64,000 bases of DNA from Polytrichum commune (Eukaryota; Streptophyta; Polytrichopsida; Polytrichales; Polytrichaceae): NCBI GenBank assembly GCA_950295325.1, contig OX485807.1, positions 15,405,001 to 15,469,000 on the forward strand, in the 5' to 3' direction. Positions 10,755-39,539 of this stretch are shown here, piece after piece. Position numbers and translations under genes: made by a program. Within the stretch, counting starts at the first letter, position 1. Each line of letters starts with the position of its first letter. The notes beneath the pieces were generated by a model, which was not told where the DNA came from, searched no databases, and saw only the letters and a program-made list of their open reading frames with translations.

Positions 10755-11110
10755 GGCTACTGATTCGAGCAAGCTTGAAGTTGTTGCTGGCCGAGGCCTG
10801 AGTGAAGGTTGGCTACTGATTTGAGCAAGCTTGAAGCTGTTGTTGGCCGAGGCCTGAGGGGAATTTTGGCTATTGATTCGAGCAAGCTTGAAGCTGCTGC
10901 TGGCCGAGGCCTGAGGGGAATTTGGGCTACTGATTCGAGCAAGCTTGAAGCTGCTGCTGGCCGAGGCCTGAGGGGAATTTGGGCTATTGATTCGAGCAAG
11001 CTTGAAGTTGTTGCTGGCCGAGGCCTGAGTGAAGGTTGGCTACTGATTCGAGCAAGCTTGAAGCTGCTGGGCCGAGGCCTAAGTGAAGGTTTGAGCTACT
11101 GATTTTGAGC
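10755..11110. repeat. 57-bp minisatellite, about six copies
   Basis: Units start with GGCTAYTGATTCGAGCAAGC at 10755, 10811, 10868, 10925, 10982 and 11038, and a partial unit starts near 11091. The period is 56 or 57 bp. Each unit contains GGCCGAGGCC. Since 57 is divisible by three, long frames stay open on both strands (Ser-Lys-Leu-Glu-Ala repeats on plus, Arg-Pro-Ala-Ala repeats on minus). The symmetry and lack of flanking coding signal argue that neither is a gene. Confidence 0.95.
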
Positions 11111-13793
11111 CGGTTATGGAACCGGATATGGGACCGGTCGTGAGCTCGACCGGGTATGGGAAAGGGCCAAGGGCATTAGGGGTATTTGGCTTCACATAAA
11201 TTAGAGGGTGGACTAGGGGGATGAGCTTTTGGTAGTGAGTTGAGGGTTGGGGTGTAAATTAGTGTAGGGAGAAGGAGATAAATAGAGAAGAGCATTTTTC
11301 AATGCTTGTACCCTTATTATGGAATAAATTGGTGTGCAAGAGTTGATGGGGAATGAAATGGATTTTTACGAAGTTGGTAAGAGGGAGTTATGTGAACATG
11401 AATGTGATCCCCATTCCCTCACCCGGACTAGGACGCTTAAGGGTGGGTGGTTTGGCCTCACAGTGAGTGGCCTACATGGAAACTAACCTTAGATACCGTG
11501 AAACGTGAAACCTTATTTTAATCACTCACAAATTTTTTTACCAAAATCAGTCCCAACCTTATCAAAAAGTATGGCACCATGTAGATCCTCTGGGTCCTAA
11601 TTGAGAATAGGCAACTCTACTCTATTCATAAACTATCATAATTTTCTATCGCCTCATCAACATCATCCAAATCACTACCTCCGTGCAACAATTCTCCAAC
11701 ACATCACCCTACACCTATACCCAATCCATGTTATTAAACTCCAATCTCACATTGGTACTTAAAGGAATGAAAAACCCACAAATTGGCTAGTGTGAATCAC
11801 ACTTCCCCAAGCACACATTTGCGGAGACCCCGTCCATATCCTCCCACCATCTCCACACATCCTCCATAGCAAAAGTTTCCACACAAAGCTTGGCCATGAC
11901 CTCAACACTTTCCTCCCAATCCTAAGGTAGATGAGGGCTAATTCGGTTAGGTTCTTCAATTGGACATCTATTTTTGGTTCCTAATCAACGGTACAATTGC
12001 TTTAATTCAATGGGTGAGTAATACATGGTGATTTAGCCGCTGCCTTGATGATATTTGGGTTAGTCACCTTCACAAAAGTCAATACACACCCACCATCCTC
12101 CATAATTAGGAGTGCTATCCCCCGAGCTCTTACATGTTTTGAATTTGTGCTTGAAGTGGGAGAATCAAGAGGTGGCATGTGGTTGTGACTCTTGTGAGGT
12201 GCCGACCAACTTGTATTGTGGGTATTCTATTATGAAAAAACAATTCGGCAACACTTTATCTGGCATGTGATCACTTTAGAGGCACAATGTAGCCAATATT
12301 GGCATTGAACTTTGGTATTCATTGGCAAATGACCCATGTAGAATTTGCTAATGATGTTGTCCACTTACACAACATTGAATGATAAAAGGATTCCCCCCTA
12401 TAACACCACATTGGGAAGTAGAGGGTCTGTGATTCCGGGGACTAGATTGACACCTTCCTCAACTCCAATCTCAAAAATTTCAATTCTTTGGTTGTGAATT
12501 TCAATTGCTAACATGCTCAAGCTTCTAATGCTCGAAGCCATTGGTTGGATGATTCCATAGAGCTGGAGGTGCCTCATCTACCTTACATAAAATTGCCTCA
12601 CCCACGAAATTATCCCTAAACAACCCTCAATCTACAATAGGACATCCAATGAACTCCTTGACCACTCCCTTTCCAACTCCTTTTGGACCCAAAAACCCCT
12701 CTATTGCACCAAACCAAATTGCACAACCTTTCAAATTCCACAATGGACAATACCAACATGGGCAACTACTCAAAATACATATTTTGGCCAAAAAACAAAT
12801 CCCTCCATATTTGCGGCCATGGATCCCATAACGTAAATAGTTGACCACATCTACTCACATCATGTCATCACCCCATCATCAAAGGCTTCCGTCTAGACAT
12901 ACATAATTGCGCCTTATAGTACATCAAGGAAATGTTTCTAACACATCACCAAACCACTTGGAATGCACAATGAACAACAATTCCACTCCATCCGAACACA
13001 TAGTCCCACAATGGAGCCTATCCCACAAATGTCCATGGCTCCTTACCCTATGTGGATGCCTCTACAAACTATATCTTGACATCGTGTTAATCATACCATT
13101 CCCACTTATTAACAACCATACAACCAACCCTACCAAAAGATCTCTCTCTGATACATCGAACACACTTATTGTCATGACAAATATAGAGAATTGGTCCAAT
13201 AAAACCTCCACTCAAGAAAATTATGGAATTTATATAAGTTCCTCCACTCATCATCTTAACCTCTAAAGGCTGAGGCAAATGTTTTTGTTTGGACAGTCAC
13301 CTCTGCCCGACAATACCAACGTACACATTTATGTTATAATCTTCTAATTTTGGATGCGTGGACAAGATGCTCTTCATATTTATGTTGGCTCCATCAAGAT
13401 CCAATGTTTGTATCTATTTATCTTGAAGAGTACGTGATCTAATGTTTTGTAACCAACAAGTTGTGTTGCAAGGTCTATGATCTTCCTTGTTTATGAAAAT
13501 TTGAATTATAATATGAAGAAAATAATTACTATAAGCCCAATTGAAAGGATCTATCCAATCGTTCAAAGAGAATGGAGAATCTTCTATTTGACCTCCTCTA
13601 AGTTTTGCGTCTCTTGAAACTCCAATTCATGAAACTTGAAATGACAAACTCCGTGATCCATAATTGTTGACAAGACAAGACCATTCTTAATCCAATCCAA
13701 AGGAGAAATTATACATGAAGCTAAAATTGTACACATAAGATGATCATATTTCGTACATCAAATTTGATTGGGGCACATCTATGGAGAAAGTAA
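11111..13793. other. gene-free stretch, possibly holding decayed coding sequence
   Basis: No family is recognised. On the minus strand between about 12400 and 12850, frames keep a protein-like composition across several stops (for example VVKEFIGCPIVD and VGEAILCKVDEAP). This could be a decayed transposon or retroposed gene, but nothing in it is diagnostic. Confidence 0.3.
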
Positions 13794-13964
13794 ATCATTG
13801 CATACGAGCGTACTTCTCATCCATCCAACATAAAAACTTGACCCCTTACTCCTAGGTTTGTGGCCAATTCATCTTAAATGACTTGGACTAGACTAATTCA
13901 AGGTCTTTATAATAGATTCGGGTGACAAATTAATTGTAAAATAGGGAAACATCCAAACTACATA

Positions 13965-15321
13965 CATTGACTCTCAAAACTGAGTCAGTGACTCACTGCA
14001 TCAATTTTTACACACAATGCCAAGCAAATACAAACAAGAATGTACAAACTTTTACTTATGTAAGTTAATAGTCATAGTTTAGTATATTATTTCCAAAGCC
14101 TCGTGTCTATTGCAAAAGTACACATGGAGAAACAACAATTTGAAGAGAATTATATACATTGAATCAATTTTGTAAACTACATCTACCCTCCTTTGGAAGT
14201 TAAAAGACCTTGGATATTATTGGGCATGTTGTGATAGAACTTGTGGCATTGCTCAGGAGTGATGGATGGAAAGAAGCTTGCACACAATCCCACAATTGAA
14301 GCGTTCATTTGTTTGGTGTTGGATACTTACTTAACTTCGGTCTCATAAGTGCCCACACATGCACAATTGGAATTAGGTCAAGTGATTGAGGAGGCCAAGT
14401 AAACACATCAAATTTTTGCATTGACAACCCTTGCTTGACTAATTTTGCAATATGTTTAGGATCATTATCATGCTGAAACATGACACAAAAAGGATTGGAA
14501 CGGTACCATTCAATTGTCTTCATGACCTCATCTTGCAGAATGTCAAGATACAAAGCTTGTGTCATCCAGCCCTTTACCTTGCACATGCCACCCATGCCAC
14601 CCATGCCACGCGAAGTCATACAACCCCACACAAAAATTGCACCACCTCATGTGTGATTCACATGATGAGCTTGTAATTGAGATTCTCCATCTCTAACCCA
14701 ACACCAAGAGCGACCATCATAGTGAAATCAATTGATCTTAGTCTCATCAATAATAATCACCCTATACCAATCATGGATAGTCCAATCTTGATGATGTTGA
14801 GCAAATTCCAACTTGCAACACAAATTCTTGGTCTCGACCAACAACTTCTTCAGCTTCTTTGATGACCCAAGACATGCTTCATGAAGTGCACGCCTCACTG
14901 TGTTGGTGCTCACTCAAAGCATTCCTCACGTCTACAACATTATCTAGTCCACCAACTATGATGGTTTTCACACACATTCGTTGTTGAGCAAGAGTGATGC
15001 TTCTTGGGCACCATCCTCTTGAAAGGCTCCACATGAGGAACACACTTTCTATGATTCCTATAACATGTAGATTAAGAGATACCCAACATTTTTGACACTT
15101 CACATGTGCTATGCCCATTATGCAAGACGACTGTAGCATTCAACCTCTCGTCCTCTTGTAATGCTCTCATGGGCAAAAAAAACCTTCGCAACTATAAGTG
15201 AAAATCTCCTCAGAGACCACACTACTAACCAAAATCGAGAGGAAGAACCCTAGGCGACTTTGTGAACTTTTTCTTGCAATTGCAAGTGAGTGATGAAAAC
15301 CATTCCCAGACTGAGTCAATG
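13965..15321 (-). mobile_element. Tc1-like transposon, decayed
   Basis: The element is about 1357 bp. It starts CATTGACTC next to TA and ends GAGTCAATG next to GA, so the expected TA duplication is present on one side and mutated on the other. Inner bases of the ends match loosely (GACTCAC near the left, its complement near the right). It encloses the transposase relic on the minus strand. Size, ends and gene agree with Tc1 elements. The exact boundaries are inferred. Confidence 0.6.
14183..15170 (-). pseudogene. Tc1-type (DD34E) transposase pseudogene
   Basis: Tc1 transposases cut and paste DNA at TA. Reading the minus strand from the ATG at 15170, the first helix-turn-helix appears in pieces (EDERLNA, STCEVSKMLGIS, then a stop). 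Next come VRRALHEACLGS and VIIIDETKIN, which hold the first catalytic Asp, then WGCMTS, then FQHDNDPKH with the second Asp. The motif after it, normally NPIEHVW, reads IPIVHVW. Exactly 34 residues lie between the second Asp and this Val, so the catalytic Glu is replaced. The C-terminal ITPEQCHKFYHNMP and SKGG are readable after a frame change near 14305. At least three frame breaks and several stops make it inactive. The full span, about 329 codons, is near the normal length. No alternative family fits the spacing and motifs as well. Confidence 0.9.
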
Positions 15322-15570
15322 GACCTAAGCTCATTTGAAATACAATTTCTCTCTTGTTACCACAACATTCCAGTTGAAATTTGGAAGGACGATAGCCAAC
15401 TTGGTTGCACATGTGACCCCACTTACGATATGACAAAAACATCAATATTCTTCCAGATACGGTTTCTCATAACTTGTTGATTTTGCAGAATGGCTGAGTT
15501 TGGAGAGTGAGTGTAGAACTCTCGAGGCTTTTATGTTGGATGAATGAGAGGTATGCTCGTATGTGATAAT

Positions 15571-15990
15571 TCCCCTCTCTCTCTCACACACACATCTCAG
15601 CCCTAAAGTTGACCTCAATACCATCTAATAATTTGTATTGACCAATTATACGATGACATGTGGCAGTTCGCACCTAACCTGACCCACACTTAATAGCCTC
15701 GTACCTTCAAATTAATACCACCCACTCGTCAAAACCCTTTCACTTGCAAAATAATGTTAACAAAATGATGAAGTCAATGGAGTGTCAACATGTGCCAATT
15801 GATGGTGCGTTGACTCCATGAATTATTTGGGCTTGCCTTCTTTATTGTTGCACATGGAATGATTGGCTACCATAAATAACGGCCCCCTCTTCTTCTTGTT
15901 TCATTGCAATGTCCGACTCCAACCGGGTTACATGTTGTGATTTTCCGGTTTTTCTTTATTAGATTTGAGGTAAATTCCATAGATTCCTCT
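15571..15990. other. flank repeated elsewhere
   Basis: No gene. The segment from about 15950 resembles 39840-39960: both hold GATTCCTCTAAAA-like or ATTCCTCTAAAA words, followed by CTTGAACTTCAA and CTCAAACTCAAC. It is therefore part of an older dispersed repeat into which a Pal-A element inserted. Confidence 0.45.
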
Positions 15991-16705
15991 AAAACGATGG
16001 GTTGATCTCCTTGACGTCTTGAACTTCAATGGTTATTTCTCAAACTCAACTAGTTCAACAACACTATAAAGGATATTTAGTGTTTGATATACTAAATACA
16101 CACGCATGCACTAAGTGTCAATAGCCCTATGAAAGTAAGTAGCATCAAATGTAAACTTGAACACTAAATATCAACTATGGTTATATGTGGAAGTTACAAG
16201 TTTTTAGAATTTAGTGTTAGTAAGGATATGAAAACAATGGGTAATTTCCTTGATGTCTTGAACTTCAACGGTTATTTCTCAAATTCAACTAGTTCAACAA
16301 CACTAAAAAGGATATTTAGTGTTTGATACAGTAAATACACACGCATGCACTAAATGTCAATAGCCCTAAGAAAGTAAGTAGCATTAAATGTAAACTCGAA
16401 CACTAAATATCAACAATGGTAATATGTGGAAGTTCCACGTTTTTTGGAATTTAGTGTTAGTAAGGATATGAAAACGATGGGTAATTTCCTTGATGTCTTG
16501 AACCTCAAAGGTTATTTCTCAAACTCAACTAGTTCAACAACACTAGAAAGGATATTTAGTGTTTGATATACTAAATACACACGCCTGCACTAAATATCAA
16601 TAGCCCTATGAAAGTAAGTAGCATCAAATGTAAACTCAAACACTAAATATCAACTCTGGTAATATGTGGAAGTTACACGTTTGAATTTAGTGTTAGTAAG
16701 GACAT
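15991..16705. repeat. three tandem 240-bp units made of MITE plus flank
   Basis: AAAACRATGG recurs at 15991, 16231 and 16471, exactly 240 bp apart. Each unit has about 70 bp of flanking sequence (CTTGAACTTCAA, CTCAACTAGTTCAACAAC) followed by the left half of a Pal-A MITE. The first two units differ at only a few per cent of positions. Confidence 0.9.
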
Positions 16706-16943
16706 GAAAAGAAAAATGCCATCGACTTCGGCAGATGAGAGATCAACGAGCAGGAAGCAGGGGCGCCATCCCTAAAATCCCAAGTCCAGTGAAATCCATG
16801 CTTCACAAGAAGGGGGGTGGTAGTAGGGAAGGTATGCAACACATTTATGTTTAACACTAATTGCCAAGGAATTGAAAATTAGTGTTGAGCAGGGTAGGGT
16901 GGTAACAACATCAAGTATAATCAAACACTTAGTATCATATTTA
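16058..16943. mobile_element. Pal-A MITE expanded by tandem duplication
   Basis: The left end begins ACACTATAAAGG and the right end is CATATTTAGTGTAGT at about 16929-16943. Between them the left half is present three times. The copy includes a central block at about 16714-16830 also present in the Pal-A copy at 45382. That block begins ATGCCATCGACTTCGGC and here carries a frame break. Confidence 0.8.
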
Positions 16944-38457: not shown

Positions 38458-39539
38458 CAGTCTAACCTTGATAATGTCACACCATCCGTTTCACCAAAAA
38501 GAGTGATATAAACAAGGTGTGACATATTTGATAATGTCACATTTTGAAGATTTGTGCATAATGTGATATTATCAAAAAAATAGGTAGAAAATCAAAATAA
38601 AATTACAATGTAAAAAAGAAAATAACAAATACGAGACTTCAATGTTTTTGAATGTAAAATCTAATTCGAAATTGTGAATAACAACAAGAGCACATCATAA
38701 TGTGTCATTGAGATCAGGTAAAGACCTCTCACTAGAGACAAAAAGAAAGCTTCTAATGTCACATTGTTTTGTTGATGTTAAATGTGCAACACCAATTCTA
38801 ATGAGTTTGTCATGGATTTTTTCCATTCCTAACAACTCCAAAGTGTTGAAAATGTCAGAACCTTGGCTAGCCATAAAATTCAAAACATCTTTAGCATATT
38901 TTTGTGCATCGCTTAGATTCACTACTTTAGACTCATCATCACTGCTATCAACAATCAATGGGTCTACTTCCATGGAATCAAGAACTTGTTCGCCATCTTG
39001 CACTAATTGCACAAACTCCTTAGTAGAATATTCCACCTCAAAATCATCTTCACCTTCCATGTTTATGTACTCCACAGGACAAAGCTTTTCTACAAGCTTG
39101 CCTTCGGCATCCAAACCCATATTCAATGCGGCAATGAGATTGCCCAATTCCAAAGTTGCTTCCTCCATTTTGGACTTCATACGTTCATCAAAATTGTTGA
39201 TATCTGCATTCCACTCTGTAGGCAATATGGCGGACTTTCTCCAACAATTTCTAATGGTTCGATCATCTAATTCATGCCATGCCGCCACACACCACAGCAT
39301 AGGGGCGGCGCATGACCCTTTCGGCTACTACAATTTGTCCATCCAACCATCACATACAATCTATCCATACTTGGTATTATCACATTTACACTACGGATTT
39401 TGGAAAAAAATAGTGACATTACCAAGGGTGATAGGGATAATAACGAGGGAGTTTTACACTATGAAAATCGGTTTCAAACTTTTAGGTGACAATATCAAGG
39501 TGTTCTATTAACAAGGGTGGCATTATCAAGGTTAGACTG
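38458..39539 (-). mobile_element. pogo-like transposon, internally deleted
   Basis: The element starts CAGTCTAACCTTGATAATG at 38458 and ends with the exact reverse complement at 39539. A TA lies on each side (38456-38457 and 39540-39541). Further GATAATGTCAC-like motifs repeat inside both ends. Length is 1082 bp. CAGT ends plus TA duplication are the signature of pogo-like Tc1/mariner elements. The gene inside is only the C-terminal third, so the element is non-autonomous. Confidence 0.92.
38695..39300 (-). pseudogene. pogo/Tigger-like DDE_1 transposase, C-terminal remnant
   Basis: The open frame gives 201 residues. The start WCVAAWHELDDRTIRNCWRK is the conserved stretch that follows the DDE_1 catalytic domain in Tigger, jerky and CENP-B-like transposases (pattern: Ala-Trp, then Thr-Ile, then Asn-Cys-Trp/Phe-Arg-Lys). 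After it comes an acidic, poorly conserved tail (EGEDDFEVEY, DSSDDESK). The DNA-binding CENP-B domains and the Asp-Asp-Asp catalytic core are absent, and the 239 bases left upstream inside the element are too short to hold them. The frame has no internal stop, so the deletion is fairly recent or the tail evolves slowly. A domesticated host gene is unlikely, because the frame lies within the intact transposon ends. Confidence 0.85.

Follow-up and report, generated by a model that had tools for sequence, protein, structure and literature searches.

A dead cut-and-paste transposon of the Tc1 type (DD34E), belonging to an old wave and inserted in a ~228-bp MITE, is with a probability of roughly 95% what lies on the minus strand at positions 13965–15513 of the 64,000-nucleotide stretch of Polytrichum commune DNA analysed here (the window). 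The family of this copy, which we call family W, has terminal inverted repeats, a TA target-site duplication, an empty site, homology to both helix-turn-helix (HTH) and DDE domains, and a catalytic spacing of 34 residues. Tc1-type elements are a known kind in plants; the unexpected part is their diversity within one genome. By analogy with the Tc1 family, the transposase would bind the ~20–24-bp terminal repeats through its HTH domains and the DDE domain would excise the element, which would then reinsert at a TA and duplicate it in a cut-and-paste cycle. The window copy landed in a MITE of its own genome, ~228 bp long without the insertion, and has decayed there since.

The original prediction placed the relic at 14183–15170, an interval that does correspond to the coding remains but falls short of the whole element. 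The edges common to 20 aligned genomic copies and the window copy delimit 1,549 bp (13965–15513, minus strand), with TA outside both ends (15514–15515 on the 5′ side and 13963–13964 on the 3′ side). Copy alignment and an end survey located the 5′ terminal inverted repeat, CACTCACTCTCCAAACTCAG, at 15494–15513 (minus strand) and the 3′ one, which reads inward CATTGACTCTCAAAACTGAG, at 13965–13984 (minus strand). All the motifs named in the prediction are present between them on the minus strand. An N-terminal HTH piece (15072–15191) matched Pfam HTH_23 with an E value of 0.019, under the cut-off; only weak matches were found for this first HTH of the family W transposase. The end of the second HTH (VRRALHEA) and the first catalytic Asp (DETKIN) follow at 14728–14913, where HTH_Tnp_Tc3_2 matched at 3.9e-6 (27.5 bits, below the cut-off of 31.5). 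The DDE part (14305–14646), with WGCMTS, QHDNDPKH (second Asp) and PIVHVW, matched DDE_3 at 0.009 (16.3 bits, below the cut-off of 28.6). Finally, a C-terminal transposase piece in a different frame (SITPEQCHKFYHNMPNNIQ..., 14183–14326) had no Pfam match by itself. Frame changes separate the HTH piece, the linker and the DDE part, and stops occur after DETKIN and after HHVNHT. The predicted distance from the second Asp to the V of PIVHVW was exact, 34 residues, although the third catalytic residue, Glu in an intact triad, reads V here.

We compared the 988-base relic with its own genome (407.8 Mb in 64 contigs, seven of them of 42–78 Mb and totalling 406 Mb) and found at least 43 matches with E ≤ 0.001. 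Besides the window copy, they correspond to at least 39 family W places spread over all seven large contigs, a copy number that is a lower bound because only 40 of 203 candidates were scored. Full-length rows were 77–84% identical to the window relic. Sibling copies retain better domains: L009 scored above the HTH_Tnp_Tc3_2 cut-off (4.6e-8, 33.7 versus 31.5 bits) and L021 above that of DDE_3 (8.3e-10, 39.1 versus 28.6 bits). Given the 3.9e-6 match of the window relic, the siblings above both Pfam cut-offs and the further DNA copies, chance similarity does not explain this relic. Flanks differed in most of the 20 copies aligned to find the element edges. Two of these copies, L009 and L010 (on contigs C1 and C6), have similar 5′ flanks and, for this reason, may share a larger repeat or a duplicated segment.

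The termini of family W read CA[C/T]TGACTCTCAAAACTGAG, within terminal repeats of ~20–24 bp. In 34 long copies (window included), 21 of which keep both recognisable ends, we found 53 ends; TA lies outside 42 of them and is absent at 11. The third base was C in 25 ends, T in 23, A in four and G in one. Family W does not follow the rule given for Tc1-like ends by Liu & Yang in 2014, 5′-CAGT...ACTG-3′ (PMC4054914), as the third base is C or T in 48 of these 53 ends, and by this rule it would not be a member. Its assignment rests on other characters. TA duplication and terminal inverted repeats, both typical of Tc1-like elements, are present; the HTH_Tnp_Tc3_2 and DDE_3 domains are recognised above cut-off in siblings and under it in the window copy; and the 34-residue spacing of the window copy recurs in eight aligned sibling pieces, six of which have Glu at the third catalytic position and two N or K. 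Among solved structures, the DDE piece of L021 was closest to Sleeping Beauty (PDB 5cr4; 2.4e-26), a laboratory-rebuilt fish Tc1 element, not one from a plant, that likewise has Glu at a spacing of 34, and matched Mos1 much less well (0.0018). Judged by triad, domains and TA, and not by the CAGT ends, family W thus appears to be Tc1-type, as the prediction of a DD34E rather than a DD39D element had it. The idea that a DD39D mariner relic was mistaken for Tc1 draws on PlantMar being a described Tc1/mariner group of flowering plants, sharing with family W the superfamily and the presence in plants, but we reject it as extremely improbable: PlantMar elements have 39 residues and a third catalytic Asp, and were reported in 2020 from angiosperms and a few oomycetes (PMC7325037), whereas family W has 34 residues and Glu in six of eight siblings, and Sleeping Beauty scored far above Mos1 for L021.

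Family W is an old wave, since the pairwise K2P between its copies has a median of 0.221 (range 0.136–0.410). Forty copies entered this calculation, the window copy and 39 others, six of the forty being partial pieces; of their 780 pairs, the 775 with more than 600 shared bases were used. If all copies radiated from one source, the divergence would be about 11% per copy, equivalent to roughly 11 million years at 1% per million years, the rate applied by Liu & Yang 2014 (PMC4054914), which may not be that of this host. No complete transposase frame is open in any of the 40 copies (six partial); L042 has the longest open stretch, of 200 amino acids. Singleton variants were evenly distributed over codon positions (238, 249 and 239), as expected for dead copies. 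Variants shared by at least six copies were rarer at third positions (45, 46 and 22), the reverse of the pattern expected under selection on the protein. Neither distribution shows purifying selection among these copies.

A second inverted repeat lies outside the element (13793–13835 and 15529–15571; 43 nt, 86% complementary). We considered it as the element's own terminal repeat and rejected this option, because the copy alignment ends the element inside it; the repeat forms the arms of a separate MITE split by the insertion (13793–15571), which measures ~228 bp without it. When the two flanks were joined without the element and searched against the genome, at least 40 rows scoring 125 bits or above were found besides the window (73–85% identity; 40 of 3,275 candidates scored), 39 of which cross the junction, the exception being C7:4699813. 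The MITE rows on contig C24 and at C3:889849 appear to be one sequence counted twice. Five MITE places were fetched (L093–L097), and all five are continuous through the junction, with a single TA in four of them and TG in L095. From these uninterrupted MITEs with a single TA across the junction, it follows that the family W element inserted at a TA within a host MITE. The original prediction had situated the element between two ends of a local "ATTG family". It is indeed flanked by the MITE arms, and the ATTG family is probably this same MITE since the end of the latter reads ATTGCATA(C/T)GAG in some copies. The MITE family, with its 43-bp terminal repeats, is abundant, as judged from the 3,275 first-look candidates (40 scored). 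Two other Tc1 copies, L016 and L028, have apparently landed beside or inside ends of MITEs of this family.

Family W is far from alone in this genome. The HTH_Tnp_Tc3_2 profile had at least 150 matches (150 of 337 candidates scored) and DDE_3 at least 149 (150 of 457 candidates scored), counts that include the family W copies; the same profiles matched none and three, respectively, of 14 control genomes. We studied 40 loci of the HTH_Tnp_Tc3_2 list (L051–L070 and L073–L092), 20 taken as listed and 20 picked for long open frames, a choice that favours young copies. They contain seven or eight Tc1-type lineages besides W, depending on L082, whose triad could not be read. Among 32 Tc1-like frames of at least 150 amino acids, the 14 that were readable all have a D..34..E spacing; the other 18, cut short or altered, gave no D-to-E reading. 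The spacing of 34 with Glu was read by eye in L081, of family D2. A complete D-D34E triad was found in six of the eight frames of at least 340 amino acids; in the other two, L059 and L075, Asn replaces the first Asp, and L075 had no D-to-E reading. Open triad-bearing frames reach 405 amino acids.

A tree of 35 rows supported five groups (W 98/100, D1 100/100, D2 100/99, A1 100/98 and A2 100/99) and did not separate the branching of the family C rows from that of L060, L054, Sleeping Beauty and Mos1; L082 is on a long branch. Support is weak along the deep branches of this tree, and its bootstrap did not reach stability; the sole named members, Sleeping Beauty and part of Mos1, both sit on long branches without a definite place. 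Family C rows with a full-length measurement have ~91–95% identity to L063. We located ends in five of nine family C members, CAGTGACTGYCAAAACTGAG in most, and in four of five D1 members, CAGTGACTTCAAGAAATGAG in most; ends were also located in L060. Members of families C and D1 end in CAGT, unlike W, and have TA. A search for ends found none in D2 and only a weak one in A2; in A1 and L082 there are apparent repeats with TA beside them, of different sequence. Families C and D1 are young: the median K2P was 0.037 over 45 pairs from 10 loci in the former and 0.0205 over 10 pairs from 5 loci in the latter. Compared with the 0.221 of family W, they imply that Tc1-type elements were present in this genome at widely different times.

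The presence of a Tc1 element in a plant, presented as a surprise in the original prediction, had already been published. In 2014, Liu & Yang reported Tc1-like sequences from nine angiosperms and, from Physcomitrella, the elements PpTc1 and PpTc2 (PMC4054914). As described there, PpTc1 and PpTc2 resemble family W in having a DD34E transposase, HTH motifs, inverted repeats, a TA duplication and a plant host. Their transposase is of 338 amino acids and the elements of 1,584 and 1,709 bp; they lie ~2.2% from their consensus, whereas family W is broken, with its median pairwise K2P of 0.22, and they differ from it by description in their ends (CAGT versus CA[C/T]T) (PMC4054914). A Physcomitrella element was later reported to have 71% identity over 71% of the sequence to TIR_1 of the fungus Pleurotus, and Physcomitrella was put in the basidiomycete clade (Castanera et al. 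2016, PMC4905642). TIR_1 of Pleurotus ostreatus and Mariner2_PPa of Physcomitrella, of 1.6 kb, constitute this fungus-moss link, and they are like family W in being Tc1-mariner elements with DDE_3 and Tc3-type domains and TA; the repeats of TIR_1, compared by description, are of 214 nt versus ~20–24 nt in W (PMC4905642). Transfer between fungi and mosses was proposed in 2016 and again in 2020, when PpTc1/2 were described as near fungal elements (PMC7466625). Text searches of the literature found no report of family W. Searches of IMG/VR by protein, alignment and pattern yielded no comparator, the two matches having no transposase among their listed open frames, and no comparators were found in prokaryote genomes, plasmids or phages.

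How these elements reached the moss is a matter of more tentative judgement. On a plastid contig of the assembly, rbcL, trnR-CCG and accD follow one another; flowering plants are not known to have this tRNA gene, which points to a non-flowering land plant as host. Among solved structures, the rbcL protein was closest to 9chz, possibly a hornwort enzyme. We give about even odds to the host plant having been colonised repeatedly by Tc1-type elements, considering the eight or nine lineages (W included) in the loci examined, the old dead wave (0.22), the two young families (0.02 and 0.04), the two deep clades and the triad-bearing open frames. For family W in particular, arrival by horizontal transfer, whether from a fungus or another host, as proposed for PpTc1/PpTc2, is a reading to which we assign slightly less than an even chance. 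It agrees with the published trees, which join the Physcomitrella Tc1 elements with fungal ones and in one case with basidiomycete ones (PMC4905642, PMC7466625), and with the coexistence of distant Tc1 families of different ages in one genome, as repeated arrivals would leave. However, several lineages surviving from a long vertical residence would leave a similar picture.

An old bryophyte Tc1 lineage, inherited vertically and diversified within the host lineage, is also conceivable, though we would place it a little further below even odds. The little-described plant lineage suggested in the original prediction was a fair proposal, although the relic is not a lone one, given the several Tc1-type families of the genome. 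Vertical descent would be consistent with the 43–46% identity (longest matches) of L010, a family W piece, to families C, D1 and D2 and to L060 and L054, and with the terminal repeat core CANTGA...TGAG that W, C, D1 and L060 have in common. By contrast, A1 and A2 are just ~25% identical to that family W piece, so that at least two deep lineages would be needed under vertical descent. The Physcomitrella elements were moreover described as nearer to those of fungi than to those of other plants, and no significant hits were reported for PpTc1/2 in Marchantia, Arabidopsis or rice (PMC7466625). As for contamination of the assembly by fungal or animal DNA, its sole support is that Tc1-like elements are typical of those organisms, and it is excluded for practical purposes, as the original prediction had anticipated, by the empty site in a MITE of the same genome together with the spread of the copies over all seven large contigs and the differences between the flanks of most of those aligned.

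Flowering plants have been described mainly with DD39D mariners, and plant Tc1-like elements from one moss and scattered angiosperm fragments. One non-flowering plant with several Tc1-type families of different ages, among them an old wave with a copy inside a host MITE and young families with open frames, makes a good place to ask whether Tc1-type elements came into plants from fungi more than once or were kept by vertical descent. If the families were to interleave with fungal ones, mosses would be a sink that repeatedly takes up DNA transposons of fungi; otherwise, bryophytes would hold an unrecognised native Tc1 radiation.

The window has some other repetitive or transposon-like features. 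An open frame of 209 amino acids with CVAAWHELDDRTIRNCWRKSAILP lies at 38698–39324 (minus strand); it had no Pfam match at 0.01, and we take it to resemble the C-terminal part of pogo/Tigger-type transposases. A tandem repeat with a 57-bp unit in 6.2 copies occupies 10755–11104 and, beside the family W element, a 240-bp unit is repeated three times in tandem at 15962–16713, its copies being 83–93% alike.
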